The notes under the pieces were generated by a model, which saw only the letters and a list, made by a program, of their open reading frames with translations, was not told the DNA's origin and did no database searches. Shown here piece after piece: positions 1,411 through 61,380 of a DNA stretch of 64,000 bases (the stretch's first letter is position 1; each line of letters begins with the position of its first letter). Made by a program: the position numbers and the translations under genes. The stretch spans positions 1-64,000 of the forward strand of contig CAILEP010000021.1 in the NCBI GenBank assembly GCA_903833275.1. Direction: 5' to 3'. This DNA is from an uncultured Bdellovibrionales bacterium (lineage in GTDB: Bacteria > Bdellovibrionota > Bdellovibrionia > Bdellovibrionales > UBA1609).

Positions 1411-1576
1411 TAGAAACAAATTATAATCCGTCGGCCGGACATTTATATAAATGAATCATCAAGTTTGATCTGATCCGGACAACTCAAAATTTCAAAAATG
1501 CGCTTTTGCCATTTTTAATATTGGTGATATTCAAAATCACTAAGCTAGCTTACACACCTGCAATCGTGGGGGCATT

Positions 1577-2372: not shown

Positions 2373-2375
2373 ATT

Positions 2376-15996: not shown

Positions 15997-16006
15997 ATTT
16001 CAAAAA

Positions 16007-46171: not shown

Positions 46172-46191
46172 GACGAGGGTCAGGATGACCC
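46172..46191. repeat. REP-like hairpin, copy A
   Basis: GACGA then GGGTC-AGGAT-GACCC (46177-46191). The same layout with paired substitutions occurs at 58106-58125 (GGGCC-AGGAT-GGCCC). Conserved loop and compensated stem point to a structured interspersed repeat. Confidence 0.5.
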
Positions 46192-46318
46192 AAGCAGTCT
46201 TGCCGATTCGTCATGGCGGGGCCGCCGTTTTTGGTAATGTCCGAACAAAAAATACTCGACCTTTAGCCAGTACCATTTTTATCTCAAATTTTATTTTGTA
46301 TGCCTTGGGAATACAGTT

Positions 46319-46335
46319 GTATGCTATAAGCATAC
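46319..46335. promoter_or_regulatory. Short palindrome abutting the MNT start codon
   Basis: GTATGC (46319-46324) and GCATAC (46330-46335) flank TATAA and end 2 bp before the ATG at 46338. A further GTATGC half-site lies at 46298-46303. No Shine-Dalgarno sequence precedes the ATG, so this may be promoter plus operator of a leaderless message. Confidence 0.45.
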
Positions 46336-46337
46336 AT

Positions 46338-46916
46338 ATGAATTTATTAGCCGAGATCCTATCCAGCCAAGTTCGCGCCGAAATTTTTCGACTGCTATTT
46401 GGCGGCGACAAAGTTTCGATTCATTTGCGTGATTTACAACGCAAATCTGATCTGTCGATCGGAACAATTCAAAAAGAAATCGCTCATCTCAAAGAACTAG
46501 ATCTTGTTACTTCCGAACGCGATGGCAATCGGCTTTACTATACTGCAAATAGCGATCACCCGCTTTACAAAGAAATTTGTGGGCTCGTCGAAAAAACATC
46601 GGGCATCCCCGAACGGCTAAGAACAGCTTTGGCCCCAATAAAGGGCATCGAATGTGCGTTTATTTTTGGGTCGATTGCAAAGAGCGAAGAAAAAGCACAT
46701 AGTGATATTGATTTAATTGTGATTGGAAATGTCGGTCTTCGCGCGCTCTCTTCGATTTTTAAAAGCTTAACTGAACAGACAGGGCGCGAAATTAATCCCC
46801 ATATTTACTCGATGAAATCCTTGAAAGACAAGCTAAAGAAAAGAGACCACTTCATCAGAAGCGTTCTGAACGAAAAAAAGATTTTTTTAATTGGAGACGA
46901 AAATGTCCTTAGCTGA
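46338..46916 (+). CDS. Winged-HTH/nucleotidyltransferase (MNT-type) antitoxin-like protein
   Basis: 192 residues from ATG 46338. The N-terminal winged HTH (about 10-75; IGTIQKEIAHLKELDLVTSE) precedes a minimal nucleotidyltransferase domain with FIFGSIAKSEEKAHSDIDLIVIG, the GSx(10)DxD metal site. In MNT/HEPN systems the MNT protein modifies and neutralises its HEPN partner, which here overlaps by 14 bp downstream. The HTH fusion suggests it also regulates the operon. Confidence 0.82.
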   Translation: MNLLAEILSSQVRAEIFRLLFGGDKVSIHLRDLQRKSDLSIGTIQKEIAHLKELDLVTSERDGNRLYYTANSDHPLYKEICGLVEKTSGIPERLRTALAPIKGIECAFIFGSIAKSEEKAHSDIDLIVIGNVGLRALSSIFKSLTEQTGREINPHIYSMKSLKDKLKKRDHFIRSVLNEKKIFLIGDENVLS

Positions 46917-47340
46917 TTGGGCCAAGAACGCTTGGCTTCGTCCCCATAAATCAAGCAAAGAAGAAATCAAAAATCTTTTCGAAATCGTTGAGCGTGATCT
47001 CAAAGATGCGTCTGCCAAAGGCCTCTCCGACGACTGGCGCTTTGGGATTGCTTACAATGCAGCTTTAAAACTATGTACCATTCTTCTGCACACATCTGGA
47101 TATAGGCCCGAAAAAAACTTAGCCCATTATAGAACGCTTCAATCCTTACCGCTCATCTTGGGCGATAAGCACAAATCGAATGCCGATTACCTCGATGCCT
47201 GTCGCAAAAAACGCAATGAAACCGAATATGATTTCGCAGGAAATATCAGCGAAGGCGAAGCTCAAGAGCTACTCGAATTCTGCCGTGAACTAAAAACCGA
47301 AGTGTTAGCCTGGCTAAATAAAAATCAACCTGGTATGTAA
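46903..47340 (+). CDS. HEPN-domain protein, partner of the MNT gene
   Basis: 145 residues from ATG 46903, with GGAG at 46893-46896. It is all-helical, with a conserved-looking RKKRNETEYDF near residue 105, the position of the RNase motif Rx4-6[H/N] in HEPN toxins. The RNETEY form matches HEPN proteins next to MNT genes. Toxicity is inferred from the family. Ends at 47340, before a gene-free stretch. Confidence 0.72.
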   Translation: MSLADWAKNAWLRPHKSSKEEIKNLFEIVERDLKDASAKGLSDDWRFGIAYNAALKLCTILLHTSGYRPEKNLAHYRTLQSLPLILGDKHKSNADYLDACRKKRNETEYDFAGNISEGEAQELLEFCRELKTEVLAWLNKNQPGM

Positions 47341-47672: not shown

Positions 47673-48416
47673 TCAGGTTTGTTGATCGAACTCTTTCTCA
47701 AACTGACTTGGCGTTTTCATCTTGAGAGATGTGTGCGGTCGTTTTTCATTATAATACCGTCGCCACTTCTCAATCTTACTCTTGCCGTCAGCCAAGTCTA
47801 AAAATACTTCTTCATTCAGGCATTCGTCTCTGATGCGGCCATTGAAAGATTCGATGTACGCATTTTGAATTGGTTTGCCTGGTTCGATATATTCTATGCT
47901 GATGTTTCTGCGTCGTGCCCAGTCCAGAAAGTGAATTGATGTCATTTCTGTGCCATTGTCGCAGCGAAGTTTTTTTGGCAGGCACGGCAAGCTGTCGAAA
48001 AAGTCAGTCACGTTTTTTGAAGTGATTGAGTAATCGACGAGAAGCCCAGGGCATTTTTTTGAAAAGTCATCGACGATTGAAAGTGTTTTGAGCGTTCGCT
48101 TTGTCTCAGTTCTGTCAGAGACAAAATCAAACGACCAAATCTCATTGGGGCCAGATGCTTTTTTAAATGGTACTCGAGTTACTTTTAACATTTTCTTTCT
48201 CCGACGGTTTTTAATTTGTAAATTGTTGGCTCGATACACTCGCTGAGTTCGAGAGCGCGCACGAACCGCGCCCTCCGTTTTTAAAAGATAGTGGATGCGC
48301 GGCACACCGAATCTGCGGTGCTTGGTCACGAGCTCTTTCATCCGCTCGGTGAGTGCCGCGTCGTCTCTGGGGTGTGCTTCGTAGCGCATCGTCGAACGAT
48401 GAAACTTTTTGAAGAC
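47673..48416 (-). pseudogene. IS3-family transposase (orfB) remnant, N-terminally truncated
   Basis: From [15 protein letters not shown] on, the frame reads as an IS3-family OrfB with HTH_21 and rve domains. The DDE residues are in [19 protein letters not shown] and [16 protein letters not shown], and the end is [16 protein letters not shown]. The region upstream (48417-48506) does not match OrfB, and no orfA is seen, so the element is incomplete. It is immediately upstream of repeat copy 1 and may have helped to build the array. Confidence 0.85.
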
Positions 48417-48674
48417 CCCATCATCGCTGAAGCCATTGTCAGTCGGCTTGAACACCCAAGTCAGCGCATCAATCTGAAGGGTGGAAATTACAGAGAAAAA
48501 TTGCAATCGACGCTCCCAAGTGGAAAAAAGCTTGAAGGAGATAAGTTGCTCAATTAATAATCACGTCGCTGACGCTCCGGTGGTACCGATTGATGAAATC
48601 ACCCGGCTCCGTTCGATGAAATCGGCCAAAGCTGACACTCTGCCATTTTAGGCCGCAAAACCCTGGCGGTTTTA

Positions 48675-48862
48675 TTGCTGCGCAAGTCGCCCAAGTAGAC
48701 GAACCGCGAACTGCGTTTATATTCGAGTTAGAAGCATATCCAGAAGCCAAATCACTGTCACCCGCAGAATTAAGGGCGCTATATCGATCTCTCAAGAGCT
48801 TTTATAGGGTCGCAGACCTTATCGGGGCCTCTGAAGCTTTTATGCGGCAGAATACCCGTTAG
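48675..48862 (+). repeat. Array repeat copy 1 (longest, truncated gene copy)
   Basis: TTG-CTG-CGC-AAG-TCG-CCC-AAG-TAG opens at 48675. The conserved coding frame, one base back, starts at 48680 and runs 60 codons to TAG at 48860-48862 (VDEPRTAFIFELEAYPEAKS ... SLKSFYRVADLIGASEAF). Against copy 5 the differences are mostly synonymous. It ends 3 bp before the ParE-type toxin stop. Confidence 0.85.
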
Positions 48863-48865
48863 ATA

Positions 48866-49162
48866 TTACGATCTACCCCGCCAGATCATCGGATTTCTAC
48901 TGGCGTGAAAAACGGCGATCACAGTAATGGTCGATTTCGAGCTCGTGTAAAACACGCCGTAAGGAAAGCGCTTCACAAGAGCACGCCGCACATTTTTATA
49001 TATCAACTGAAAACCTTCAGGATTTCTTTCAACTTGATGTAGGGCCGCTTCAACGCATAACAGAAAGTCGGCTCCTAAACCGGCACTTTGCGCCTCGTAC
49101 CAGAGATAACTCTCAGCTAGCTCGGCCTCCGCTTCAGCGCGGATCAGAATTTCAAATTTCAT
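48866..49162 (-). CDS. RelE/ParE-type toxin
   Basis: 98 residues with the ParE fold pattern: RAEAEAELAESYLWYEAQ, FLLCVEAALHQVERNPEGFQ, ALVKRFPYGVFY and a final strand ITVIAVFHASRNP. ParE-like toxins act on gyrase, RelE-like ones on mRNA at the ribosome; the RFPY...V..VFH form favours ParE-type. The start overlaps the antitoxin stop as ATGA. It is the first gene pair of cassette 1 in the repeat array. Confidence 0.88.
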   Translation of the reverse strand: MKFEILIRAEAEAELAESYLWYEAQSAGLGADFLLCVEAALHQVERNPEGFQLIYKNVRRALVKRFPYGVFYTSSKSTITVIAVFHASRNPMIWRGRS

Positions 49163-49386
49163 CTCTTAGATTTTGCTTGAATACGTTTTTTAACTTGAGT
49201 CCACGAGCCGGCGACGGGCGAGGGATTTTCGAGCCTGTTGGCTAACTCAGCTTTTTGGGCTTGAGTAAGCGGGACGCTTTCAGGGTGAGACGCAATGCTA
49301 TCCCAAATTGCCTCAACGGCTAAAATTCTCTCAGGAATACTTAGCTGCAGGACTTTTTGAATTGAATCTTTTTTTCTAGCACCCAT
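49159..49386 (-). CDS. Addiction-module antitoxin (TIGR02574-type)
   Basis: The ATG at 49386 gives 75 residues. The helical sequence LSIPERILAVEAIWDSIASH and the Pro-rich ESVPLTQAQKAELANRL match the short addiction-module antitoxins that pair with ParE/RelE toxins. It precedes and overlaps the toxin by four bases, the normal order. The long open frame upstream of the ATG is non-coding. Confidence 0.82.
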   Translation of the reverse strand: MGARKKDSIQKVLQLSIPERILAVEAIWDSIASHPESVPLTQAQKAELANRLENPSPVAGSWTQVKKRIQAKSKR

Positions 49387-49503
49387 ATTTTTAAAATATA
49401 ACAGGTGTTGGACCCATCTGCCAGCCAAGAATTTTGGGGGCCGTAACTTGCGGAAAACGACATGCAGCAGAGGCCAGTTTACAACCGACGATGTCGAGGT
49501 CAA

Positions 49504-49815
49504 TTCTCATTCTGACGCGCCCCAATTTGAAACGACGATGCATTAGACAATGCAAAAACGATTGCCACCGAAATCAGCTCAATTTGATAAAAACTGTTCA
49601 TAACTGACTGATAGTAACCTCGTTGGCGGACTCGGTGATGGTTCCGCATGGCGGACAAAGCCAGTAAATGTACTATTAAAATAACAGGCGCCTGAAAAAC
49701 GCATAATTTCTTTCAGATCAGACTTGCGCTTTCCGTGAGACCAAAGATCATGGCCCGCGCCGTTGGCTTTAGACCCCCTATCTGAGTTTAACGTCTGGCG
49801 GAGAGAGCTCAATCA
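49504..49815. other. Gene-free stretch in cassette 1
   Basis: No recognisable gene. A minus-strand frame is open for 77 codons, but it has no good start or family. The stretch separates the ParE-type pair from repeat copy 2. Confidence 0.3.
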
Positions 49816-49944
49816 ATGGTGCGCAAGTCGCCCAAGTAGACGAACCGCATACCCTGTTTATATTCGAGTTAGAAGCATATCCAGAAGCCAAATCCCTGTC
49901 ATCTGCGGAATTAAGGGCGCTATATCGATCACTCAAGAGCTTTA
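49816..49944 (+). repeat. Array repeat copy 2
   Basis: ATG-GTG-CGC-AAG-TCG-CCC-AAG-TAG opens at 49816. The conserved -1 frame from 49821 matches copies 1 and 5 up to SLKSF, where identity stops at about 49944 in the last codons of the HigA-like gene. The continued frame ends at TAA 49962-49964. Confidence 0.85.
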
Positions 49945-50274
49945 GGCGCAGAGCTGATGAATAATCTTCCCAAGATTTTCTAAAGTAGGATTACCCTTAG
50001 GTGTAAGCATTCTAAATAATGTCCGCCTAGGGATACCCGCTTTTTGTGCGAGCTTATCTTTATTCGTAACTTCTAAATGACTTCGTAAAATTTCTTTAAA
50101 TGCTGCAATGTCATTTTCAACAAGGCACTGCCATAAGGCTTGAGCAACAACTTCCCGCTTTTGAAGACGCACGTCTGGGTTAAATGCTGCGATGCCTTTG
50201 CGGTTTTTTAAATTAACCGTTGGCAAATCGTTCAAGGAGAAGCCGCGCTTTTTGGATGTCTTTTTTCTGGGCAT
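49942..50274 (-). CDS. HigA-type antitoxin (XRE-like HTH)
   Basis: 110 residues: a basic start (MPRKKTSKKRG), then a helical domain with AFNPDVRLQKREVVAQALWQ and an HTH KLAQKAGIPRRTLFRMLTPKGNPTLENLGKII. This is the usual antitoxin of Gp49-like HigB toxins. It overlaps the toxin gene by 62 bp. The C-terminal codons abut repeat copy 2. Confidence 0.86.
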   Translation of the reverse strand: MPRKKTSKKRGFSLNDLPTVNLKNRKGIAAFNPDVRLQKREVVAQALWQCLVENDIAAFKEILRSHLEVTNKDKLAQKAGIPRRTLFRMLTPKGNPTLENLGKIIHQLCA

Positions 50275-50509
50275 TTTTAAGTCCTCCGTTTAAAAGTAAA
50301 ATGACAACTGGGCCGGTTTTTGAAAAGTAAACTCTTCGGCCATTCTTCCATCTTAATTCAGCTAAACCATCACCGAGATTTTTTGCGTCACCAAAATGGG
50401 CATGATCTCTGATTCGTTGAATTCGTGAGTCAATTTGCATCTGATCTTTCAGGTTCAGACTCTCAAACCATTCCATAAATTCAGATGTTCGCTCAATTTG
50501 AAGTTGCAT
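50213..50509 (-). CDS. HigB/Gp49-like toxin (RelE/ParE superfamily)
   Basis: 98 residues. The pattern FMEWFESLNLKDQMQIDSRI, then GDGLAELRWKNGRRVYFSKTG and VVILLLNGGLKNAQKKDIQKA is that of phage-derived Gp49/HigB toxins, mRNA interferases in the studied cases. A perfect 26-bp palindrome lies 7 bp upstream of the ATG. Toxin-first order is typical of higBA. Confidence 0.9.
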   Translation of the reverse strand: MQLQIERTSEFMEWFESLNLKDQMQIDSRIQRIRDHAHFGDAKNLGDGLAELRWKNGRRVYFSKTGPVVILLLNGGLKNAQKKDIQKARLLLERFANG

Positions 50510-50515
50510 CTACAA

Positions 50516-50541
50516 CTATAGTGCCATATATGGCACTATAG
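50516..50541. promoter_or_regulatory. Perfect 26-bp palindrome, operator of the HigB/HigA-like operon
   Basis: CTATAGTGCCATA (50516-50528) followed by its exact complement to 50541. It lies 7-32 bp upstream of the toxin ATG (50509), where HigA-like antitoxins bind their operators. Confidence 0.75.
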
Positions 50542-50581
50542 GGTCAATTGGAATTCTTGATACGGCTTCGGTTCGCCTATG

Positions 50582-50720
50582 TCGATCGGTGAATATTGTA
50601 TCATATTGATATTTTTAAAGAAAATTTGGTGCGCAAGCCGCCCAAGTAGACGAACCGCGTACACTGTTTATATTCGAGTTAGAAGCATATCCAGAAGCAA
50701 AATCTCTGTCATCTGCTGAT
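50582..50720 (+). repeat. Array repeat copy 3 (with upstream extension)
   Basis: TTG-GTG-CGC-AAG-CCG-CCC-AAG-TAG opens at 50626, and the -1 frame begins at 50631. It matches the other copies to about 50720 (KSLSSAD). The 45-50 bp before it (TCGATCGGTGAATATTG ...) resemble the same stretch before copy 5 (53390-53437), so copies 3 and 5 share a longer left side. Confidence 0.82.
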
Positions 50721-50883
50721 ATGCAGCTGCGATATTAATAATCGGATCGGCAATGTCGTCTTTTGAAAGGCTCACAAATGGCGGCTTTAATTCAATGTAA
50801 CCGTCGGCATTTGGAGTACCAGACATTATTCTTCTAGCTTGGTTCGTAATCTGCATCAGACCAAACGCTGAACTCTTATCATT
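50719..50883 (-). pseudogene. Fragment of a lytic transglycosylase
   Basis: The minus-strand frame reads NDKSSAFGLMQITNQARRIM and then DDIADPIINIAAAYQ. These are the SxAxGLMQIxxxxA and DPxxNIxxxxxYL blocks of SLT-type lytic transglycosylases. The catalytic Glu region and the C-terminal half are missing. It continues in frame right after the stop of the ribbon-helix-helix antitoxin and is cut on its other side by repeat copy 3. Confidence 0.7.
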
Positions 50884-51141
50884 TTATTCACCACTTGCTT
50901 TTTTATAGACCTTCCACAAACGGTCGATGTCTTCGCGAATAAGACCGCCCAAAAAAGTAGTGAAGGGCACGCCTTGTGCTCTAGCCAAAACTTTTATGCG
51001 ACTGAGCAGTTCGTTGTTAACTCTCATATTCACTTGCTTTGAAGTCACTACTGGAATGTCGTCGCGCTTTTCAGCGTGTCTGGTGACGCTTTCAATTTGC
51101 TTTTTCGTCAAACTTTCAAGTTTACTTTTTTTAGGTTTCAT
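50884..51141 (-). CDS. Ribbon-helix-helix (CopG/BrnA-like) antitoxin
   Basis: 85 residues with a basic start, then VVTSKQVNMRVNNELLSRIKVLARAQGVPFTTFLGGLIRE, an RHH DNA-binding fold with C-terminal helix as in BrnA/CopG antitoxins. AAGGAGG precedes the ATG. No intact toxin is next to it; a remnant with an ATGA-type overlap lies upstream (51138-51251). It may protect against a toxin lost from the cassette. Confidence 0.8.
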   Translation of the reverse strand: MKPKKSKLESLTKKQIESVTRHAEKRDDIPVVTSKQVNMRVNNELLSRIKVLARAQGVPFTTFLGGLIREDIDRLWKVYKKASGE

Positions 51142-51251
51142 AATTTTGAACCTCCTTTTTTCTTCTTTCTATAGGCATTGATCACACCTAAAACTTCCAG
51201 AAAATCACCTTCGAACAGCCAAATAACTATATTGTTTTGGCTGGCTTGCCA
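51138..51251 (-). pseudogene. Possible remnant of the cognate toxin C-terminus
   Basis: A 37-codon frame without a start reads NNIVIWLFEGDFLEVLGVIN and ends KKKKGGSKL, its TGA overlapping the antitoxin ATG as ATGA. That overlap is usual for toxin-first pairs. The antitoxin Shine-Dalgarno lies inside the Lys-Gly codons. Family not identified; low confidence. Confidence 0.3.
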
Positions 51252-51338
51252 TTATCGAGCTCCGCAATCACGCTATACGTTTTCAATCGTAACTATACGT
51301 AATCATACCAAATATAATTGCAAATGTATAGGATTTTA

Positions 51339-51442
51339 ATGGCGCGCAAGTCGCCCAAGTAGACGAACCGCGTAGTACGTTTATATTTGAACTTGCGGCC
51401 GATCCTGGGGCTAAAGCGTTGTCTCCTTCAATCGAATTGTGA
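51339..51442 (+). repeat. Array repeat copy 4 (most diverged)
   Basis: ATG-GCG-CGC-AAG-TCG-CCC-AAG-TAG opens at 51339. The -1 frame (from 51344) reads VDEPRSTFIFELAADPGAKA, then LSPSIEL and TGA at 51440-51442. The first 30 bases are identical to other copies, while the rest has diverged at DNA level but kept the protein pattern. The rest of the 511-base gap 51142-51652 shows no intact gene. Confidence 0.78.
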
Positions 51443-51652
51443 GCTCTGACAATGCCTTGGGTAGTTTTGCTCGCGTAGCTCGGCACATTAGCTCAGCTGA
51501 AGCGACTGTCCGGCAGAATGCGCGAGCTAGTGGTTCTTAACGACCTAGGCGTTAGCTATTGCCTTTCGGTTTGCAATTATTCATTATTGATTCGATGATT
51601 GCAAAAATGGTGAGCGACAAAGTTCGTCTGATTCGAATGAGAGTTTGAACTT

Positions 51653-52069
51653 ATGCTTCAATTCATTTTTATTTTCTTTATCAATATGTCGTCTGCTTTC
51701 GCGAGCGACGCTGAGTGTTCGATTTATGCCAAAAATTGCGCTTTCAGCGGAACATTAGAGACACACACGTATCCTGGTGAACCAAACTATAAAGATATTA
51801 ATAAGGGGGATGAGGCCGAGACCCATCTCTACCTTAAATTAGATTCTCCACTAGTGATTCACTATAAAGATTGGGACAAAGATCAAGCCCCCATCACAGA
51901 AAAAGCCTCATTGCTCCAAATTAGTGGGGATTTTAGTCGCCGACTTTTTAAAGTGGCTAGGAAACCCAATCATTTTGTCATAAATGGCACTTTATTTGAA
52001 TCATTTAGCGGGCACCACCATACCCATTTTTTAATCGATCCAGTAAAAATCACTCAAGGCAATAAATGA
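51653..52069 (+). CDS. DUF4431-like exported protein, possible immunity protein
   Basis: 138 residues with a signal peptide (MLQFIFIFFINMSSAFA). The mature part shows AKNCAFSGTLETHTYPGEPN and ends with GTLFESFSGHHHTHFLI; the GHHHT block and PGEPNYxxIxxGD are features of the DUF4431 family. Its stop overlaps the next gene as ATGA. An exported small protein coupled to a cell-wall-hydrolase-like protein without a signal peptide fits an immunity-effector pair, which is inference only. Confidence 0.72.
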   Translation: MLQFIFIFFINMSSAFASDAECSIYAKNCAFSGTLETHTYPGEPNYKDINKGDEAETHLYLKLDSPLVIHYKDWDKDQAPITEKASLLQISGDFSRRLFKVARKPNHFVINGTLFESFSGHHHTHFLIDPVKITQGNK

Positions 52070-52743
52070 AGTCGTTTAAATTTGTAAAGGCAACCGAAGG
52101 TGAAAACAGTAGTACATTTTACTATGCGCTCGATGGAACCAAAACTATCAAGTCCGGCGGCAGTTGGGCCTGGCGAAACAACAATCCGGGCAACCTGAGA
52201 AAAGGCAAATATTCTAGAAATAATGGTTGCATCGGTTACTCTGGCGGATTTGCCGTATTCCCCACTCCAGAACAAGGTGAGGCGGCACTCGTTGATTTAA
52301 TTAAAAATGGTTACAGAAATTCCAGTCTTGAAAGCATGATTAAGCACTACGCCCCGCCGAAAGATCGAAATAAAACAGCTCGTTATTTGAAATTTATCTT
52401 ATCTCAGTTACGAATCAAAAATCCCAAAGCTATGATCAGAGACTTGACGGCAGCACAACTTGAAAAACTTGTGAAAGCAATCGAACAATTTGAGGGATGG
52501 AAACCGGGGAAAACGGAAGTAATCCCGGCGCCTCTTCAAATCACAATGGTCATGAAAAATAAAAAGCAGACGATTGTCGCCTATTTTGTGAAAACATTAG
52601 GTTGGATACAAAAACCTGAAGCTCTGCAATTAGCCCGACAAGGTAAAATTGACGCAGTGGTCGCTCATTCGCGAGATGGAAATCCGTATTTAAAGACGAG
52701 GCCAGATACAACTGTGGTCAATAATTTAAAAAATCTTGGCTAA
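52066..52743 (+). CDS. Phage/effector-type hydrolase-like protein (NNPGNLR domain)
   Basis: 225 residues without a signal peptide. The N-terminal domain reads SWAWRNNNPGNLRKGKYSRN, then GGFAVFPTPEQGEAALVDLI and MIKHYAPPKDRNKTARYLKF. This is a recurring lysozyme-like domain in phage tail, Rhs and secretion effector proteins. The C-terminal half (about 155-225) ends in a KTLGWIQKPEALQLARQGKI segment. The exact enzyme activity is not established. Coupled to the exported DUF4431 protein upstream. Confidence 0.68.
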   Translation: MKSFKFVKATEGENSSTFYYALDGTKTIKSGGSWAWRNNNPGNLRKGKYSRNNGCIGYSGGFAVFPTPEQGEAALVDLIKNGYRNSSLESMIKHYAPPKDRNKTARYLKFILSQLRIKNPKAMIRDLTAAQLEKLVKAIEQFEGWKPGKTEVIPAPLQITMVMKNKKQTIVAYFVKTLGWIQKPEALQLARQGKIDAVVAHSRDGNPYLKTRPDTTVVNNLKNLG

Positions 52744-52780
52744 GTGCAAAGTGAATTCATTTGGTGCAGGCCGATAAGGC

Positions 52781-53059
52781 CTAGAGGGCCTTCTTCTTAA
52801 AAACAGCCTTTTCTAGCTTCTCAACTCGATCAGCAAGGCCCTCTTCGCCAAGAACTATGCCTCTGAGTTTTCTATTTAGCCAAGTCAGGTAACCAACGCC
52901 TTCTTCGTGCGCCTTCTTTTTGGCGACCTCGATAATCTCGTTATCAAGCCGGATCGAAGTAAGAGTCTTTTGTTCACGCAAAGCCGCGTCGACTTGCGAC
53001 TTTGACTTGATTTGCCCTTTAATTACTGCCGCTTTCGTAAAGTCATAATTGCGCTTCAT
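52781..53059 (-). CDS. brnA: BrnA-type antitoxin
   Basis: The ATG at 53059 gives 92 residues: AAVIKGQIKSKSQVDAALRE, then the RHH strand TLTSIRLDNEIIEVAKKKAH and a helix GYLTWLNRKLRGIV, and a Lys-rich end. This is the BrnA pattern (partner of BrnT). It overlaps the toxin gene by 17 bp. BrnA binds BrnT and represses the operon in the studied case. Confidence 0.86.
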   Translation of the reverse strand: MKRNYDFTKAAVIKGQIKSKSQVDAALREQKTLTSIRLDNEIIEVAKKKAHEEGVGYLTWLNRKLRGIVLGEEGLADRVEKLEKAVFKKKAL

Positions 53060-53318
53060 AAAATTTTCTCTCCGCCTTATTGGCCTTTCGAGCTGAAATG
53101 ATTCTTGTGGTTTCATCTTCTGGATAGGCGACTACGACCACAAGCACATTTAGCTTCTTGCACATGCCAAGATATACATATCGCTCTTCGCCAGAATCAG
53201 TATCTTCTTTCAGCACGATCACGAGGCCACAATTAAGCGCCTCTTTTGCATCGTCAAAAGAAACGCCATGCTTCTTGATGTTTGATTTCTCTTTAGTTGA
53301 ATCCCATTCATAGTGCAT
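53043..53318 (-). CDS. brnT: BrnT-type toxin
   Basis: 91 residues opening MHYEWDSTKEKSNIKKHGVS, the BrnT signature (xFEWDxxKxxxNxxKHGVxF), with SGEERYVYLGMCKKLNVLVV and a final RIISARKANKAERKFYE. BrnT is a RelE-fold RNase. Two tandem 10-bp repeats lie just upstream and may be the operator. Confidence 0.93.
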   Translation of the reverse strand: MHYEWDSTKEKSNIKKHGVSFDDAKEALNCGLVIVLKEDTDSGEERYVYLGMCKKLNVLVVVVAYPEDETTRIISARKANKAERKFYEAQL

Positions 53319-53328
53319 CGATTAATAT

Positions 53329-53348
53329 TGTAGTACGTTGTAGTACGT
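53329..53348. promoter_or_regulatory. Tandem 10-bp direct repeat upstream of brnT
   Basis: TGTAGTACGT occurs twice in a row (53329-53338 and 53339-53348), 11 bp upstream of the toxin ATG at 53318. GTAC is itself a palindrome, so each unit could bind one RHH dimer of BrnA. Confidence 0.55.
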
Positions 53349-53389
53349 TTGTAAATAGTGTTTATGGGACAGGGGGCGGTTCACCCCAA

Positions 53390-53651
53390 TCAATCGGTCA
53401 AATCTGTATCGTTTTGATATTACTAGCAATTTTATTTTGGTGCGCAAGTCGCCCAAGTAGACGAACCGCGAACTACGTTTGTATTCGAGCTAGAAGCATA
53501 TCCGGAAGCCAAATCCCTGTCATCTGCTGAATTAAGGGCGCTATATCGATCTCTCAAGAGCTTTTATAAGGTCGCCGACCTTATCGGGGCCTCTGAAGCC
53601 TTCGCCCGCCAAAATGCCAACAAAACCAAAAAACAAAGGGGTTCTAAATGA
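53390..53651 (+). repeat. Array repeat copy 5: gene fragment coupled to the recombinase
   Basis: TTG-GTG-CGC-AAG-TCG-CCC-AAG-TAG opens at 53437. The -1 frame from 53442 runs 69 codons (FVFELEAYPEAKSLSSAELR, then SLKSFYKVADLIGASEAFAR and a basic tail) to TGA 53649-53651. This TGA overlaps the recombinase ATG as ATGA. The frame has no ordinary start codon of its own. The last helices (VADLIGASEAFARQN) look like an HTH. This is the most complete copy and probably the parent gene. Confidence 0.85.
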
Positions 53652-54319
53652 GTAAAGTAGCTTTATATGCACGTGTTTCAACAGACCAACAAGCGACAGG
53701 CCTCGAATCTCAGGTTCGAATCTTGAGAGATTACTGCACGAAAAACGATATTTCTAACTATGAGCTCTTCACCGATGAAGGCATCAGCGGAACAAAGTCA
53801 TCGAGGCCTGCGCTGGATCGAATGATCGCAGCTGTAAATAATGGCGAGATAAGCTCGGTCATCGTTTATTCGTTTTCGCGGTTCGCTAGAAGTACTACGC
53901 ATCTTCTAAATGCTTTAAATATCTTCAAAGCTAAAAACGTGGCGTTCGTTTCGATCACAGAAAAAATTGATACGAGTACACCTGTTGGACTTGCGGTTTT
54001 TAGTATTCTGGCGGCCATCAGCCAGCTAGAACGAGATTTGATCGCTGAAAGGGTCAAGGCCGGATTAGCTAACGCGCGGGCGAAGGGCAAACTTATTGGT
54101 AGAAAGAAAATGCGGGACTCAGACTTAATTCGCAAACTTTTAAAAGCCGGAATGACGTTTCGGCAGATTGCTTCAATCGCTCGTTGCTCACATGGCTCGG
54201 TTTGGGCGGAAAAGTCGGCAATGATGAAAGAAGACGCGGCAAAAGCATTGGCTGCATCACTACCGGAAGCAGCGCCACAAGTAATTTTTCCGGAAGTGAC
54301 TGCACAACCTGCGGCATGA
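53648..54319 (+). CDS. Small serine recombinase (resolvase/invertase family)
   Basis: 223 residues. The catalytic Ser11 is in LYARVSTDQQ, with the resolvase blocks VYSFSRFARSTTHL, STPVGLAVFSILAAISQLERDLIAERV and the linker GKLIGRKK. A C-terminal HTH (KAGMTFRQIASIARCSHGSV) and an Ala/Pro tail follow. AAAGGGG precedes the ATG, which overlaps repeat copy 5. It would resolve or invert DNA between specific sites. A strong hairpin ends the gene at 54371-54404. Confidence 0.94.
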   Translation: MSKVALYARVSTDQQATGLESQVRILRDYCTKNDISNYELFTDEGISGTKSSRPALDRMIAAVNNGEISSVIVYSFSRFARSTTHLLNALNIFKAKNVAFVSITEKIDTSTPVGLAVFSILAAISQLERDLIAERVKAGLANARAKGKLIGRKKMRDSDLIRKLLKAGMTFRQIASIARCSHGSVWAEKSAMMKEDAAKALAASLPEAAPQVIFPEVTAQPAA

Positions 54320-54370
54320 CGTGTTGTTAGAACTTCCCCTTGATGATCGACTGAATTTTTCTATTTGATC

Positions 54371-54404
54371 GCCTGGGCTTGCTCTAACTTGGGCGAGCTC
54401 AGGC
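54371..54404 (+). terminator. Probable terminator hairpin behind the recombinase
   Basis: GCCTGGGCTTGCTC (54371-54384) can pair with GGGCGAGCTCAGGC (54391-54404) over 14 bp, three of them G-U, around a 6-base loop. TAGTTTTG follows, a short T tract. Confidence 0.5.
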
Positions 54405-55553: not shown

Positions 55554-57305
55554 ATGTTACTGTCGACGGAAGTTCAGGCCGAAATTTTGAATCTTCACTT
55601 CAACGATCGCCGTTCGGTGAGGTCGATTTCCCGCCAGATGGGGGTTGACCGAAAAACTGTGCGGCGATTAATTGAGCGGCGAAAAGTTGAAACTAAGGCG
55701 AAGGTGGGCCCTCGTCGGTCAATTTTAGACCCATACACCGAGCAGATTCGAGATTTACTGCGCAAAGATCCAAAAATAACAGCGACGGCGATTTTAAATC
55801 AACTTCGACGGCAAGGTTATGCCGGCGGCATCAGCGTTTTAAAAAGCCTCGTGCAATATGAGCGGGCGCGATTTTTAAGGCCACGTGAAGCTTTTTTGCG
55901 ACTTGAGTTTCAGCCGGCTGAAGTGGCTCAAGTTGACTGGAGTGAGTTCGGCGACGTGTTTGGCGATGGCGTTAAAATCCACTGCTTTGCCATGGTACTT
56001 GCGTACTCTCGCTACATGTATATTGAATTTACGCGCTCTGAAAAGTTCGAAGAGTTTATCCGTTGCCACGAGAATGCGTTTAAATTTTTTAGCGGCGCGC
56101 CGAAAGAATGTTGGTATGACAATTTAGCTTCGGCCGTGAGTGACCGTATTGGTTCGCTTGTTCGATTTAACTCTCGTTTTTTGGCATACATGGCCCACCA
56201 TAGTGTGCGGCCACACGCCTGCAATGTGGCCAGCGGCAACGAAAAGGGGCGCGTTGAAGATTTAATTAAATATATTCGAATGAATTTTTGGCCCGGCCGA
56301 GAATTTAAAGATTTTGACGATTTAACGACTCAAGCCATTGTCTGGCGCAACCAAATCGCAAATGACCGTGAACATCGCTCTACCCGCAGGGTTGTGAGTC
56401 TTTTATTTGAATCTGAAGAGAAAAAAGAATTAATGCCATTAAACCCAACACCATATGGCACTGACGAGGTGTTCTCGCGGTCTGTGCCGCCAGACTTTCA
56501 CATACAATATGAAACCAATCGTTACTCTGTGCCGTGGACTCTTGTCGGCATGGTCGTCACGATCAGAGTGAATAATCTCGCGATTAAAGTTTATTACAAC
56601 GAAAAATACATCACCTCGCACCCACGAAGTTTTTTAAAAAATAAAGTTTTTACCCAAGAGACCCATCGGGCAGGCCTTTTAGAGAAAAAGCCTGGTGCCA
56701 CTCGCGAAACATGGCAGCTCAGCTACGTTAAAGAGCTTGGCGCTGAGATGTCAAAATACGTTGAGCTTATACGTCAGGGCCCTCGTTCGCTAAAACACGA
56801 ACTGAAACGTCTTGTCGCGCTTGTCACGATTTACGGCAAAGATATTGTAATCGAATCGTGCAAAGCTTGCATGGGTTCAGGTGTCGTCGGCGTTGACTCG
56901 ATTGAATTATACATCAAAAGGCAAAACCACCCGAGAGACACAAAAAGCAAACCAGAGCCGATTCAATTTACAAACGAGCGACTGAACCGGGTTGTGCCGG
57001 TGGTTGACCTGAGAAAGTACAACGCACTCTACTTCGAGGGGCAGTCAATGAGTGCGTCGGAGGATTTAAAAAATGAACGAAACGAACAACCCACTGATCG
57101 AGGGGCTATCGGAGCTGAGGCTCAAATACTGGGGCCAAACGATGCAAGAAGACCTTGCGACGATGAAAGAGCCCGATCGAGATGCGATAACAAAATACCT
57201 GAGCCGGTGGATCGAGAAAGAGAAAGCCGAGCGCAAAACACAGATGATACAGAGCAAAGTACGCTCAGCGAAGTTCCGCCGCCTTCAGACGGTCGAGAGT
57301 TTTGA
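55554..57305 (+). CDS. istA: IS21-family transposase IstA
   Basis: 583 residues: an N-terminal HTH (SVRSISRQMGVDRKTVRRLI), an rve integrase core with DDE residues in AQVDWSEFGD, CWYDNLASAV and ASGNEKGRVED, and a C-terminal beta-barrel-like domain. The last 77 residues (KNERNEQPTDRGAIG onward) overlap the istB start in another frame for 233 bp; they look like an unselected tail. AGGAG precedes the ATG. Confidence 0.95.
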   Translation: MLLSTEVQAEILNLHFNDRRSVRSISRQMGVDRKTVRRLIERRKVETKAKVGPRRSILDPYTEQIRDLLRKDPKITATAILNQLRRQGYAGGISVLKSLVQYERARFLRPREAFLRLEFQPAEVAQVDWSEFGDVFGDGVKIHCFAMVLAYSRYMYIEFTRSEKFEEFIRCHENAFKFFSGAPKECWYDNLASAVSDRIGSLVRFNSRFLAYMAHHSVRPHACNVASGNEKGRVEDLIKYIRMNFWPGREFKDFDDLTTQAIVWRNQIANDREHRSTRRVVSLLFESEEKKELMPLNPTPYGTDEVFSRSVPPDFHIQYETNRYSVPWTLVGMVVTIRVNNLAIKVYYNEKYITSHPRSFLKNKVFTQETHRAGLLEKKPGATRETWQLSYVKELGAEMSKYVELIRQGPRSLKHELKRLVALVTIYGKDIVIESCKACMGSGVVGVDSIELYIKRQNHPRDTKSKPEPIQFTNERLNRVVPVVDLRKYNALYFEGQSMSASEDLKNERNEQPTDRGAIGAEAQILGPNDARRPCDDERARSRCDNKIPEPVDRERESRAQNTDDTEQSTLSEVPPPSDGREF

Positions 57306-57852
57306 CTTTAGACACTCAAAAATGACCGAGAAAGTTGAAAAGCAATATCTCACTTTGCACCAGAGTATTAGTCGAGAAAACTTACCATCGGCCGTGTTCA
57401 CCGGCAATGCGGGCGCTGGCAAAACCCATCTTGCGCGAGCCCTTGGCTATGCCGCCTGCCAAAAAGGTCTAACCGTTTTATTTTTAACGGCAGCCGAAAT
57501 GGTGAACCAACTTCAGCACGCGCAAAAAACGTACAGCTTAGAAACAGAATTAAATAAATATCGGAGACCTCAGGTCTTAATCATTGATGAGTTGGGCTAC
57601 GTGGCTCTGGATACGCAGGCGAGCAACTTGTTCTTCCAGGTGATCTCGAGCCGACACGATGCAGAGCTTGGTACTATAGCTACTACCAATCTACCGTTCG
57701 GCCAGTTCAACCAGATCTTTGCAAACGACGCCATTGCCCATGCCATAGTAGATCGGCTCGTCAATGAGGCTGAGGTCTTTTTTATGGAGGGCGACTCTTA
57801 TAGGCCGCATCAGAGACAAGAAAAACTAAAGCGAAAAAAACAAAACGCTTAA
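57073..57852 (+). CDS. istB: IS21-family helper ATPase IstB
   Basis: 259 residues of the AAA+/DnaC-like family that selects target DNA for IstA. An N-terminal LRLKYWGQTMQED helix, Walker A TGNAGAGKTHLARAL, Walker B VLIIDELGYVAL, sensor IATTNLPFGQF and the closing FFMEGDSYRPHQ are all normal. It begins 233 bp before the istA stop. Confidence 0.95.
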   Translation: MNETNNPLIEGLSELRLKYWGQTMQEDLATMKEPDRDAITKYLSRWIEKEKAERKTQMIQSKVRSAKFRRLQTVESFDFRHSKMTEKVEKQYLTLHQSISRENLPSAVFTGNAGAGKTHLARALGYAACQKGLTVLFLTAAEMVNQLQHAQKTYSLETELNKYRRPQVLIIDELGYVALDTQASNLFFQVISSRHDAELGTIATTNLPFGQFNQIFANDAIAHAIVDRLVNEAEVFFMEGDSYRPHQRQEKLKRKKQNA

Positions 57853-58209: not shown

Positions 58210-61200
58210 TTACTTTATATTAGGTACTAAACTTTCTGTATTCGCCAGAATTTCAAAGTATCGGTTTAATAGATCTTCTGGGTCGAACGAACCGAAGGTT
58301 TTACTGTCACAGCTAAGCGTGCAAACGTACGTGTCATTTGACCTTTCCATTAACACGACGACATCGCAATCCCATCCCCAGCCGCGGGCCCCATCAGTTG
58401 AATAAGGCAAATCTATATTAATTGCTGGCAAATTATTAAAGCTAAGCGATTCAAAATCCAAAAAATTAAAATACAACTGCGGCCGATAAGCATCACAGAA
58501 AACCTCACTCTCTTTCGTCAATGGAAACAACTTGAAGAACGATACAATTTCATTTGAGAGTGTTTTTAAAAACCTCGCCTGCACAGTTCGAACGTGAGAA
58601 TTAAAATTCGAATTCGATGCTACCTCACACTTTTGAAGCGAAAGGTCAATGATGGGCCCCAAAACGCCATTCAGCTCGGGCTCGGTTCGGGCCATTTTCT
58701 GAATCAAAGTCAAAAATTTGTGGCGCCGCGTGGCTTCTGCGAAGGCCAGCTCAATTGCCGCCAAAAAAATTGAGTTTAATGAGTACCCCCCTGAGACCCT
58801 AAATTCTCGTAATGCATCACATGTTTTGCGACCCAATCGCCGCACATGAAAGCTACGCTCTACAACATTTTTCTGCGCTTTGACCTTTTGAGAGTATTGC
58901 CACTGAAATTGTTTTGAGTTTGTTTCTATACGCTTAAGCGTCTGTTCTAAATCGACCTTCTTCGCGTTTTCACGCTCCCATGTCGCAAAGTCGGCAAACT
59001 GAACCGGTTGCTCGAGCGACTTGCGCTTACTTTCAGACGATAATGTCTCATAGTTTTTAGAGATCTCACGCAAAACAATCTCAAATGAAACACCGTCAAA
59101 AATCAAGTGGTGAGCCCAAATCAAAATTGTGTGCCTTGTCTTACTGTGCTGCCAAAGATCACATCCGAACAATCTATCTCTGCCTAGGTCGCAAATTCGT
59201 TGCTCAAGCTCACCAATTCTTTTTTTTAGAAACTTATTTTGCTTTGCGCCACTAAGAGATGAAAGATTCACAAAACGAAAATAATTTGCAAAGCTCTTTT
59301 TAGCCTTCAACTTGTATTTTCCTGATTTTTTTGTAAATGCCGCCCGTAAGATTTCATGTCGTGACACAGTTAGCTCAACAGACTTCTTAAATCTTTTTAA
59401 ATAAATCGAACTCGTCACGTCATAGGCCCGCATTATTAAATATCCCCGCGGATCGCGATCGACCATTTCAAGAACTGTCTCTTGAAAATAAGAAGGGCTT
59501 ACTAAATTGCCACGACTGACTTTTCTTAACCTTGATTTTTTAGTCGTGCTCAATTTAATCGATTCGCCTGCCAAAAGCCTTAACTTGTCAATTTCTGAAA
59601 CAATCGCAGCTAAATTCTTTGAGCTAAAAATATCACTCACTTCTAACGATACATTGAAGGTTCGCTCAATTAGTGACCTTAACTGCATAGCCTGAATAGA
59701 ATTTCCGCCAAGCGCCAAAAAGTTATCTGAGAAATTGATTTTCTCTTCGCCGAATAAGGTCTGAAAAACTTTTAATAACTTAACCTCTGTCGCCGTCTTC
59801 GCCTCTATTGTTGTTGCTTTTTCAGTTCGTACCACCCCCGCTTTATTTGGGGGCAATTCATTTTTGGACAAAAGCGCCATTCGGGCGATTTTTCCGTTCG
59901 GAAGGCGAGGCAGTTTGGCAATTGCAATAAGCTTTTGTGGAATGGCTTGGCGGGGCAGGTAAGACGTCAAAAATTTTTGCAAGTCACCTGGCGAAATGCC
60001 ACCAACATAATGGGCAGATAGAATTTTTTGCCCATTATCTAGGGCATGGTAGATAACCGCGACCTCACGCACTTCATTGCACTTTAAAATTGCATTCTCA
60101 ATCTCGCCAATTTCGACCCGAACACCATTAATTTTGATCTGATTGTCTTTTCTGCCCAAAACTTGAATTTTGCCATTTGGCAATCGGCGGGCTACATCGC
60201 CCGTTTTGTAAAGACTCAGCTTTTCACCGTTTAATAAAATATCTTTCAAGAACAACTTTTTATTTAAATCTGGAGCATTTAAGTAGCCAAGGCTCTGATA
60301 GGGCGTGTGAATATATAAATCACCGATTGCATTTTTCTCGACGACCTTCAATTTGCCATCGAGCACAAAGCCCTTAGCGAAATCTATGGGGTAACCAACT
60401 GGTATTACCGGCAACAGTAAATCATTTTTGTCTATGATATTATAGAATTTAGCCAAGGTGGTTTCTGTTGGGCCGTATAGATTTACTAATCTAACTTTGA
60501 ACCCTGGCCTTTTGTATAGCGGCGCGACATCTTGCGAACGAAGAACTTCGCCAGCCAAAAAGATAACCTTTAAGTTTGAGTTTTTGAAATTAAACTCATT
60601 TTTTACAAAATACTCTCGAAAAAGAGTAGGCACTATGTGAACGTGACTTATTCGCTTCTCGTGCAACCATCTAGAAAACCTTTCTAGATTAAGTATCGTG
60701 TTTTCGTCGGGTATTACACATACCCCACCATTTACCAATGGCAAAAATATGTCGCGCAATGAAGGGTCGAATCCAATAGCGGTTAAGAAACTTACTCGAG
60801 TTTTCTGGTCGCAATTAAATGTTTTGCTTTGCCATTCTATAAACTGACAAAGGCCCTTATAGCTTCCCATAATTGCCTTTGGCTCGCCCGTTGAACCAGA
60901 AGTAAAGAAAATGTAAGATTCATCGCTTCTGCTCGCGTACCCTGACTTTTTATTTAGTGCCCGTTTATTTTTTAAATTCTCGATTGAAACGCCAAAATTT
61001 TTTTCACTCAATCCGATCTTAGTTAAAATTTCGGCATCAGAACAACGATCACATGTAAGAACCAAATCTGGATTGGCAATCTCAACAATACGTAATAAGC
61101 GCTGCTCTGGGCTATTAATCGCAATCGTTGAAAATGGAATGTTCGCTTTTAACGCGGCTAAAATGGCGATAATCATTTCTGGCGAGCGCGGCATTAAAAT

Positions 61201-61380
61201 CAAAACTCGTTTCGATTTCTTACAACGCCGTCTTAACGTCATGGCTAAATAATCACTCATGACCTTAAGCTCATTGTATGAAATTGAGCTTGCTTCACTC
61301 TCTATCGCCGCTGCCTCTGGTCTATTCTTAGCCCACCATTCAATTGAATCTATAACTGAAAGTAGCTTTTTTCGAGACAT
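58210..61380 (-). CDS. Nonribosomal peptide synthetase module, order A-PCP-C
   Basis: 1056 residues. Adenylation domain (about 10-510): FTSGSTGEPKA (159-169), IGFDPS (202-207, holds the amino-acid-binding Asp), LYGPTETT, YKTGDVARRL, GRKDNQIKINGVRVEIGEIE and PNGKI. Carrier domain with Ser561 in DNFLALGGNSIQ. C-terminal condensation-type domain (about 625-1045) with RHEILRAAF and the active-site HHLIFDGVS (757-765). A-PCP-C, with no thioesterase, is unusual for a single protein; it could load one residue and condense it with an acceptor supplied in trans. GGGGAG precedes the ATG. The region is A+T-richer than its neighbours. Confidence 0.92.
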   Translation of the reverse strand: MSRKKLLSVIDSIEWWAKNRPEAAAIESEASSISYNELKVMSDYLAMTLRRRCKKSKRVLILMPRSPEMIIAILAALKANIPFSTIAINSPEQRLLRIVEIANPDLVLTCDRCSDAEILTKIGLSEKNFGVSIENLKNKRALNKKSGYASRSDESYIFFTSGSTGEPKAIMGSYKGLCQFIEWQSKTFNCDQKTRVSFLTAIGFDPSLRDIFLPLVNGGVCVIPDENTILNLERFSRWLHEKRISHVHIVPTLFREYFVKNEFNFKNSNLKVIFLAGEVLRSQDVAPLYKRPGFKVRLVNLYGPTETTLAKFYNIIDKNDLLLPVIPVGYPIDFAKGFVLDGKLKVVEKNAIGDLYIHTPYQSLGYLNAPDLNKKLFLKDILLNGEKLSLYKTGDVARRLPNGKIQVLGRKDNQIKINGVRVEIGEIENAILKCNEVREVAVIYHALDNGQKILSAHYVGGISPGDLQKFLTSYLPRQAIPQKLIAIAKLPRLPNGKIARMALLSKNELPPNKAGVVRTEKATTIEAKTATEVKLLKVFQTLFGEEKINFSDNFLALGGNSIQAMQLRSLIERTFNVSLEVSDIFSSKNLAAIVSEIDKLRLLAGESIKLSTTKKSRLRKVSRGNLVSPSYFQETVLEMVDRDPRGYLIMRAYDVTSSIYLKRFKKSVELTVSRHEILRAAFTKKSGKYKLKAKKSFANYFRFVNLSSLSGAKQNKFLKKRIGELEQRICDLGRDRLFGCDLWQHSKTRHTILIWAHHLIFDGVSFEIVLREISKNYETLSSESKRKSLEQPVQFADFATWERENAKKVDLEQTLKRIETNSKQFQWQYSQKVKAQKNVVERSFHVRRLGRKTCDALREFRVSGGYSLNSIFLAAIELAFAEATRRHKFLTLIQKMARTEPELNGVLGPIIDLSLQKCEVASNSNFNSHVRTVQARFLKTLSNEIVSFFKLFPLTKESEVFCDAYRPQLYFNFLDFESLSFNNLPAINIDLPYSTDGARGWGWDCDVVVLMERSNDTYVCTLSCDSKTFGSFDPEDLLNRYFEILANTESLVPNIK

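Follow-up and report, generated by a model that had tools for sequence, protein, structure and literature searches.

Integrases whose genes are cut by their own integration are known from archaea. According to the sections of a 2021 review of archaeal tyrosine recombinases that deal with them, such self-disrupting, 'suicidal' integrases are exclusive to archaea, are found as int(N) and int(C) pieces, and have been proposed to give rise to chimeric integrases by recombination between integrated elements (PMC8371274). In the SSV-type (type I) tyrosine integrases treated there, such as those of SSV1, pTN3 and pT26-2, the attachment site of the element (attP) lies in the integrase gene, integration splits this gene and occurs mostly in tRNA genes, and tandem integrations have been reported (PMC8371274). 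Here, an arrangement of this kind with a serine recombinase is described from a 64,000-nucleotide stretch of DNA (the window; positions 1 to 64,000 of contig CAILEP010000021.1, assembly GCA_903833275.1) of an uncultured bacterium of the order Bdellovibrionales, a relative of predatory bacteria. In this window five direct repeats, far exceeding chance, bound four short cassettes which mostly consist of toxin-antitoxin genes. It is highly probable that these repeats are the left attachment-site scars (attL) of elements whose large serine recombinase (LSR) carries attP within its own gene.

All five copies of the repeat listed by the first-pass annotation of this DNA were confirmed, but their true left edges lie slightly to the right of where they had been placed; for copies 3 and 5 the annotated starts had taken in some 45 bp to the left of the edge, a flank that shows similarity of its own. 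The copies share a sharp left edge between the T and the GG of a TGG core (GC instead of GG in copy 1) at positions 48677, 49818, 50628, 51341 and 53439. Their right ends are variable, and the description of a repeat with a constant left and a variably cut right part thus proved accurate: copy 5 is matched by the other four copies at E values of 3.6e-66, 1.6e-47, 1.5e-31 and 2.3e-13, with local matches spanning 162, 126, 93 and 53 columns at 88.7–93.2% identity. As judged from its sequence, each repeat is half of an attachment site followed by the start-less C-terminal domain of an LSR. All copies lie on the forward strand. Copies 1 and 5 are nearly complete, the former (48677–48862) comprising the putative half-site P′ and a nearly complete fragment of the C-terminal domain (intC, 61 codons and a stop), the latter (53439–53651) the half-site and the full intC frame of 70 codons (53439–53648, stop at 53649–53651), again without a start codon. 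Copies 2 to 4 are cut short on the right. Behind the half-site they retain a truncated intC whose end enters the 3′ end of a HigA-like gene (copy 2, 49818–49964), a short remnant (copy 3, 50628–50720) and a short, diverged remnant (copy 4, 51341–51451). The frame of copy 5 runs into the ATG of a small serine recombinase gene at 53648, as the overlap noted earlier between the last copy and the start of this gene had implied.

None of the five window copies contains an in-frame ATG, GTG or TTG in the stretch from the last stop upstream of the edge to the twentieth codon beyond it; in loci outside the window, such codons are scattered over various positions. A single reading frame is nonetheless conserved. 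In a set of 25 near-complete sequences the first ten codons exhibit low and equal proportions of synonymous and nonsynonymous differences (pS 0.28, pN 0.27), and beyond them the means are 0.78 and 0.43, respectively. The low, equal values at the beginning are as expected if the DNA there is constrained as a binding site. A structure model of the peptide predicts helices at residues 29–39, 42–49 and 53–60, with a predicted local distance difference test score (pLDDT) of about 86 in these helices and a mean of 69.5 over the whole model. From this model and the sequence we read the domain as helix-turn-helix-like. A fold search returned no match with an E value below 1, though many of the listed targets were DNA-binding proteins. 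It could be argued that the piece is an independent small gene, encoding a DNA-binding directionality factor beside attP, and no part of the LSR protein at all. This would fit with its separation from the LSR in nearly all loci, with the constraint on its first codons as DNA and with the in-frame start codon that some copies in other genomes have upstream of the edge. However, no window copy has such a start near the edge, the frame keeps the phase of the LSR, and natural genes exist in which the two are fused, which makes this explanation very improbable. An earlier candidate, a stand-alone small open reading frame (ORF), was dropped for the same lack of a start in the five window copies, and a mini-ORF ending in AAGTAG, once considered as the end of the LSR, was replaced by the other frame.

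The assignment of the repeat to an LSR comes from related genomes, in which elements have the order half-site with LSR C-terminus, toxin-antitoxin or other cargo genes, LSR body and, often, a tRNA 3′ end (loci are referred to by L numbers, genomes by G numbers and contigs by C numbers). Four loci (L131, L132, L134 and L145) have the edge and peptide on the left and an LSR gene on the right, on the same strand and within 4.4–6.3 kb; L126 likewise has a C-terminal piece on the left and an LSR on the right, and in addition an in-frame fusion of an LSR C-terminus with the peptide. Peptide, LSR and tRNA gene are all present in L127, L129, L130, L137 and L144, with the tRNA at the LSR end. The LSRs that were scanned (L134 and L292) exhibit the standard set of Resolvase, Recombinase and Zn_ribbon_recom domains; no such domain set is present in the window array itself. 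Among LSR loci with at least 49% identity (excluding fragments found in G031:C212 and G117:C18), 13 of 15 carry the peptide on the contig of the LSR, and in the remaining two, G000:C5 and G047:C47, the LSR begins 4.1 and 0.5 kb from the start of the contig. The first of these belongs to the genome of the window and encodes an LSR of the kind described here (C5:4089–5714) which reads into tRNA-Leu(cag); with the contig beginning 4.1 kb away, its left end is not seen.

Of particular weight are natural genes that are not split. In L292 (9854–11764) an LSR of 636 amino acids, with Resolvase, Recombinase and Zn_ribbon_recom domains, crosses the core in frame and continues into the C-terminal domain; a second C-terminal piece stands alone 5.8 kb to the left of its start, and a tRNA-Leu gene lies 4.1 kb to the right of its end. 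L126 provides a second unsplit example, of type B, in which the C-terminal ORF has 376 amino acids and the N-terminal part lies in a separate, overlapping ORF, as well as the type A fusion mentioned above, which has 165 amino acids and a deleted N-terminal part. Type B C-terminal pieces were also found alone at the TGG edge, at 13 sites in 11 further loci (L292–L302). Because natural unsplit genes read across the core into the C-terminal domain, it is strongly supported that attP lies inside the LSR gene and would be cut by integration. A full-length LSR fold predicted without an alignment had a mean pLDDT of 38 and was not used. As a whole, L126 (G101:C35:89001–109000) is a composite island with everything in one orientation: a type B scar, the type A fusion, a ribbon-helix-helix (RHH)/PIN pair, the interrupted type B LSR with C-terminal domain, and a type A LSR ending in tRNA-Leu.

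The tRNA genes define where these elements end. In many elements ARAGORN placed a tRNA gene at the right end, which runs antiparallel to the peptide and has its 3′ end at the right boundary. Nineteen of 52 edge sites (low-scoring profile matches without an edge being excluded) have an antiparallel tRNA gene to the right within 10 kb, and 15 of the 32 where at least 5 kb of sequence is available. As controls, a parallel tRNA gene to the right was found once, an antiparallel one to the left never and a parallel one to the left five times, all five being the single tRNA-Arg gene left of the window array. At all 19 tRNA sites the site begins with the same four letters as the reversed tRNA end (GGTG for Leu, GGCG for Ser, GGTA for Val, GGTG for Phe), and usually the agreement is longer, with TGGTGC for Leu (L126 differs in the last letter), TGGCGG for Ser, TGGTAGGG for Val and TGGTGG for Phe. 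This indicates that the left edge is the 3′ end of the tRNA gene read backwards. Earlier ideas which had been derived from GTGCGC and from TGG (CCA) at the edge, namely a hairpin, repetitive extragenic palindrome (REP) or HUH element, a retro-cassette or a group II intron, were dropped with no dedicated model run, since tRNA 3′ ends and LSR frames explain the edge.

At the right end, the LSR frame passes the core and stops inside the antisense strand of the tRNA gene. Among 31 combinations of an LSR with an antiparallel tRNA gene no more than 400 bp from its end (duplicates removed), 28 cross the core in the phase of the left-end peptide frame, although these are related genes and not independent cases, and in 25 of the 31 GTTCG lies at a constant distance left of the core (hand count). 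Joining the half-sites by script yields a site of about 50 bp with arms GGTTCG...CGAACC around the TGG core, and its centre of symmetry is found at the same offset in all seven joins that do not involve a mini-cassette (L133, and six in which an LSR lies at the tRNA gene). While left-edge sites were found at tRNA-Leu, Ser, Val and Phe, LSR ends occur also at Met, Ala and Pro; read-through into the antisense tRNA was observed at tRNA-Met, Ala, Phe and Pro for the LSRs of L034, L042, L171, L173, L175, L176, L270, L286 and L290. One empty site was examined. In G071 the flank is joined directly to tRNA-Ser(gga), whereas in G073, of the same genus, 6.2 kb lie between the two, with flanks that are 89–90% identical (positions 1–1491 of G071 align with 7247–8736 of G073, and 1500–3799 with 14949–17249).

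Taken from the anatomy of the elements, the natural unsplit genes, the reading phase, the tRNA matching and this one empty site, a cycle can be proposed. In a free circular form the attP of about 50 bp would lie within the LSR gene, whose frame would run through it into the helix-turn-helix-like domain at the C-terminus. On recombination with a tRNA 3′ end, the LSR gene would be cut at the TGG core, leaving the C-terminal domain with half-site P′ at the left edge of the integrated element, and the catalytic, recombinase and zinc-ribbon part at the right edge, where it would read on into the antisense strand of the tRNA gene. New elements would insert beside old ones and thereby form tandem arrays, in which the LSR part of one element could meet the C-terminal part of the next, restoring a full-length integrase gene that would possibly be chimeric. 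Such a restored full-length arrangement is seen in L292 and, interrupted, in L126; a chimeric origin of the restored gene is presumed. In the window the LSR bodies are missing, and four cassettes and a fifth scar next to the small recombinase are left. Two further elements of the model, mobilisation of cassettes in trans and a role of the lost C-terminal domain as a switch, are likewise inferred.

A number of observations weigh against this reading. No tRNA gene was found in 33 of the 52 edge sites, many of them on contigs which end early; among the 32 sites with 5 kb of sequence or more, it is lacking in 17, to which all five window copies belong. The contig of the window carries no tRNA gene to the right of the array, and no LSR fragment was recognised at the right ends of the window cassettes. 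Only L126 and L131, out of the five loci with C-terminal piece on the left and LSR on the right, end at a recognised tRNA gene; in L132 and L134 the end is formed by a core with no tRNA gene, and no core was recognised at the LSR end of L145. Exceptions to the common reading phase are L040, one gene counted at two other tRNA genes, and L289, one degraded gene; in L047 the site and an LSR-like C-terminus are joined out of frame. The symmetry of the individual sites is modest, with 10–12 of 18 positions compared with means of 7.0–7.6 and maxima of 11–13 after shuffling, and the mini-cassettes L061 and L125 reach only 8–9 of 18 and lack the constant centre. The right end shared by some cassettes (see below) has GGTTC about 60 bp from the core and not about 20 bp; perhaps it is the half-site of another, unseen LSR subfamily. 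At the empty site, 572 bp left of the recognised scar in G073 are also absent from G071 and unexplained, which suggests that the G073 locus holds more than one insertion. The C-terminal domain had no significant match in Pfam or PDB, and a weak one in PHROG (E 0.005), to a group without known function. Finally, neither a circular form of an element nor enzyme activity has been observed.

Further sites of this kind were found in the genome of the window and in its genus. L063 (G000:C6:172001–192000) is another scar in the genome of the window, located at tRNA-Val, where TGGTAGGG matches the tRNA end and an HTH_37 protein is encoded beside it. In G005:C3 (L260 and L062; same genus as the window) an LSR C-terminal remnant is located at the end of a tRNA-Leu(taa) gene, and a bare half-site lies at a distance of about 9.9 kb; the two are probably the remains of an element that decayed at a hot spot of this kind. 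The original tRNA gene of the window array, or a syntenic empty site, was not found in the genus (G004 and G005): in the stretches compared, the left flank is recognisable up to tRNA-Arg and nothing of the array region beyond.

The distribution of the repeat is patchy, as for mobile DNA. A DNA match is present in 5 of 59 relatives, the own genome of the window included, and the array is not fixed among them. A genome of the same genus has the repeat on contig G004:C160. When up to three mismatches are allowed, the 25-base left edge is found in 5 of the 140 genomes searched within the order, and a degenerate pattern retrieved eight stretches from the genome contig collection, all of them in Bdellovibrio, Bdellovibrionaceae or Bdellovibrionales records. 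A peptide profile built from 14 sequences (alignment A1) had hits in 28 of these 140 genomes at E ≤ 0.01, and in 32 of 290 genomes of the phylum at E ≤ 1e-4, ten of which lie outside the order. Viral contigs gave no match to the degenerate pattern, and none of 145 pattern matches in the profile scan was confirmed; in 953 plasmid records only LSRs of less than 60% identity were found.

Cassette 1 encodes, on the reverse strand, a ParE-family toxin (48866–49162; PF05016, E 8.3e-8) and a putative addiction module antitoxin of the Unstab_antitox family (49159–49503; PF09720, E 3.4e-11), so that the predicted ParE-type pair is borne out by Pfam. For cassette 2 a HigB/HigA-type pair had been named. 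A HigA-like antitoxin (dnstrm_HI1420; 49942–50274, reverse strand; PF21716, E 1.3e-5) and a Gp49/HigB-like toxin (50213–50509, reverse strand; PF05973, E 1.2e-4) were indeed matched, but both just below the curated cut-off. Cassette 3 holds a lone CopG-type antitoxin with no recognised partner (50884–51141, reverse strand; PF12441, E 1.8e-6), in line with the orphan RHH antitoxin expected there. In cassette 4 a small predicted protein without a Pfam family (51653–52069, forward strand) is followed by a protein with a DUF3892 domain at its end (52066–52743, forward strand; PF13031, E 2.1e-12); a DUF4431 label given earlier was not reproduced by Pfam for the ORFs scanned. This cassette also encodes a BrnT toxin (53043–53318, reverse strand; PF04365, E 7.1e-23), and its partner, a BrnA-like antitoxin (52781–53116, reverse strand; PF14384, E 8.5e-5), remains below the cut-off.

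Recurrence of these cassettes in other genomes bears on whether they have moved as units. Cassette 2 (810 bp) is found alone, as one unit of 875 bp, in L058 of a genome from another family (G044), with 84% identity over 693 columns and 82% over the first 74; this unit has the edge sequence T|GGTGCGC at both ends and a full-length peptide. In L138 the BrnT/BrnA part of cassette 4 is found again, as a cassette of 874 bp at tRNA-Leu, and it is also present in L117. About 60 bp at the right ends of cassette 2 (50570–50627, forward strand) and cassette 4 (53378–53438, forward strand) are shared with four sites of other genomes (two in L125, one each in L061 and L117), two of which are at a tRNA junction. 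Short elements of 0.8–2.1 kb occur at tRNA genes, and toxin-antitoxin families found beside other scars include Gp49/HTH_3, RHH with PIN, HicB, Phd and BrnT/BrnA; the underlying scan covered 89 proteins encoded next to 43 scars (7 from the window, the others being 82 of 101 listed ORFs), and the families are given without counts per scar or a genomic background rate. As read from its sequence, the window array is either a tandem pile of split-integrase elements or of mini-cassettes mobilised in trans. Most likely the cassettes are mobile mini-cassettes without an integrase which would be moved in trans by a related LSR, and those of the window would be held in place by their addiction modules.

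A different history would also account for part of these data. The array could be the debris of degraded tandem LSR islands in which toxin-antitoxin genes were left over as they resist loss, with the cassettes never having moved as small units; the split integrase is accepted here, and only the mobility is disputed. Copies 2–4 are truncated, the lengths of the cassettes are irregular, LSR fragments decay elsewhere (e.g., at tRNA-Leu in G005, in L118 and in L120), and the conserved sequence is not clearly present at the right end of cassette 1 or 3, all of which would be expected of debris. Yet debris does not readily explain cassette 2 standing alone with matching ends in another family, one and the same right-end sequence closing two window cassettes and four sites elsewhere, or the short elements at tRNA genes. 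Decay without movement is possible, though less probable than not.

The small serine recombinase (223 amino acids; 53648–54319, forward strand; PF00239, E 1.1e-45), whose start overlaps the intC stop of copy 5, offers a third view of the array. In an integron-like system the repeats would resemble attC sites, this recombinase would be the cassette integrase and copy 5 its primary site. The toxin-antitoxin genes of the window are antiparallel to the repeats, as in cassettes consisting of a gene and its attC, and a C-terminal piece directly precedes close homologues of the recombinase also in L139 (84.8% identity, start overlapping the stop) and L201 (65.8%, about 50 bp past the stop); in L047 and L050 a type B-like piece and a small hydrophobic ORF come first, and the distance from the edge of the piece to the recombinase is 614–624 bp. 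Most close homologues, however, have no such site nearby: it adjoins three of the 15 that were scanned (window, L047 and L050; two of the 15 had less than 300 bp of upstream sequence), with L139 and L201 coming on top. Moreover, many site-bearing elements have an LSR instead, the repeat frame is continuous with LSR genes, and toxin-antitoxin genes beside scars in other genomes lie on either strand. The integron integrase model (TIGR02249) had seven sub-threshold matches in the genome and none above the family cut-off, and sub-cut-off matches were also found in all 14 control genomes. An integron-like mechanism is therefore highly unlikely. The attC-like reading of the repeats was set aside, with no attC model run, as an LSR half-site with a coding fragment would explain them and no IntI exceeds the cut-off, and so was the small recombinase as the mobilising enzyme, a role which the first-pass annotation had suggested for it, most homologues lying away from any such site. 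What stands of that annotation is its view of cassettes which are delimited by recombination sites and belong to a serine-recombinase system, not an integron. We read the small recombinase as an optional gene of the split-integrase elements; in the circular form it would follow the LSR, and integration would separate it from the LSR promoter. That it acts as a resolvase is a guess. A gene for a small hydrophobic protein recurs near the small recombinase in L044, L047, L050, L052 and L139 (by eye).

Several features of the surrounding DNA may be mentioned. Just left of copy 2, at 49796–49807, the window contains TGGCGGAGAGAG, the opening of a site of the tRNA-Ser type, 21 bp ahead of the Leu-type edge; an element of other specificity may have left this trace. 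An IS3-like transposase with rve domains (47673–48506) lies to the left of the array and an IS21-like pair, an rve/Mu-type transposase with IstB (55554–57852), to its right; these insertion sequences (IS) may have displaced the array from its tRNA gene. Further to the left (46185–47340), a nucleotidyltransferase gene (Pfam Polbeta/NTP_transf_2) is followed by an ORF of 149 amino acids without a Pfam match, which we take to be an MNT/HEPN toxin-antitoxin pair. A nonribosomal peptide synthetase (NRPS)-like protein of 1056 amino acids with adenylation, carrier and condensation parts is encoded a few kb from the array (58210–61380). Rfam had no match between 46 and 58 kb of the window.

In a broader view, it is conceivable that LSRs switched by their own integration are widespread in the Bdellovibrionota. 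The loss of the C-terminal DNA-binding domain would act together with the separation of downstream genes, such as the small recombinase, from the LSR promoter, arrays would rebuild chimeric integrases, and non-autonomous toxin-antitoxin cassettes would be captured and moved at tRNA 3′ ends, on a platform unrelated to integrons. We advance this tentatively, as nearly as probable as its opposite. For the window, a vague cassette array has become a defined family of toxin-antitoxin cassettes. The seemingly random peptide ends of these LSR genes find an explanation as tRNA read backwards, and a sequence rule is obtained for finding such elements, together with candidate tRNA-targeting serine integrases and their predicted sites. 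Easier systems could be used to test how an integrase that cuts its own gene is maintained, whether direction is set by the split and whether arrays produce chimeric enzymes.

Compared with the SSV-type integrases introduced above, the elements described here would share the attP inside the integrase gene, its splitting, the preference for tRNA genes and the tandem arrangement. They differ in that the enzyme is an LSR (Resolvase, Recombinase and Zn_ribbon_recom) without a tyrosine recombinase domain, that the host is a bacterium, that the split would remove a C-terminal, DNA-binding-like domain with the catalytic part staying on the other piece, and that the same edge serves small toxin-antitoxin cassettes. 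Staphylococcal cassette chromosome (SCC) elements, which depend on the Ccr large serine recombinases, are also found as tandem elements at a single chromosomal locus, the 3′ end of rlmH, and have a repeated edge, so that LSR-driven tandem elements with such an edge are common to both. To our knowledge, however, the recombinase gene of SCC is not split, and the targets recognised here are tRNA 3′ ends (rlmH was not searched for). Superintegrons and related toxin-antitoxin cassette arrays likewise consist of short cassettes, of which many encode toxin-antitoxin pairs and each is bounded by a repeat, but the repeats of the window are coding fragments with half of an LSR site. The likeness to a superintegron which had been noted at first therefore holds for the layout; the closer analogy is to tandem tRNA-targeted integrative elements with a self-splitting integrase. 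With tRNA-targeted genomic islands and integrative mobilizable elements they share the insertion at a tRNA 3′ end, the tRNA gene that is kept whole and the toxin-antitoxin and cargo genes; we know of no such island whose integrase gene is normally cut. As stated in the Islander abstract, these islands usually carry tyrosine integrases. Among the entries listed by searches of the openly licensed literature there was no self-splitting integrase of bacterial or serine type. As far as searched, the self-splitting integrase is thus known as a kind, whereas its bacterial, serine-type form, which loses a C-terminal domain and is accompanied by toxin-antitoxin mini-cassettes, is new, and it suggests that the strategy of the archaeal tyrosine integrases arose independently in another recombinase superfamily.

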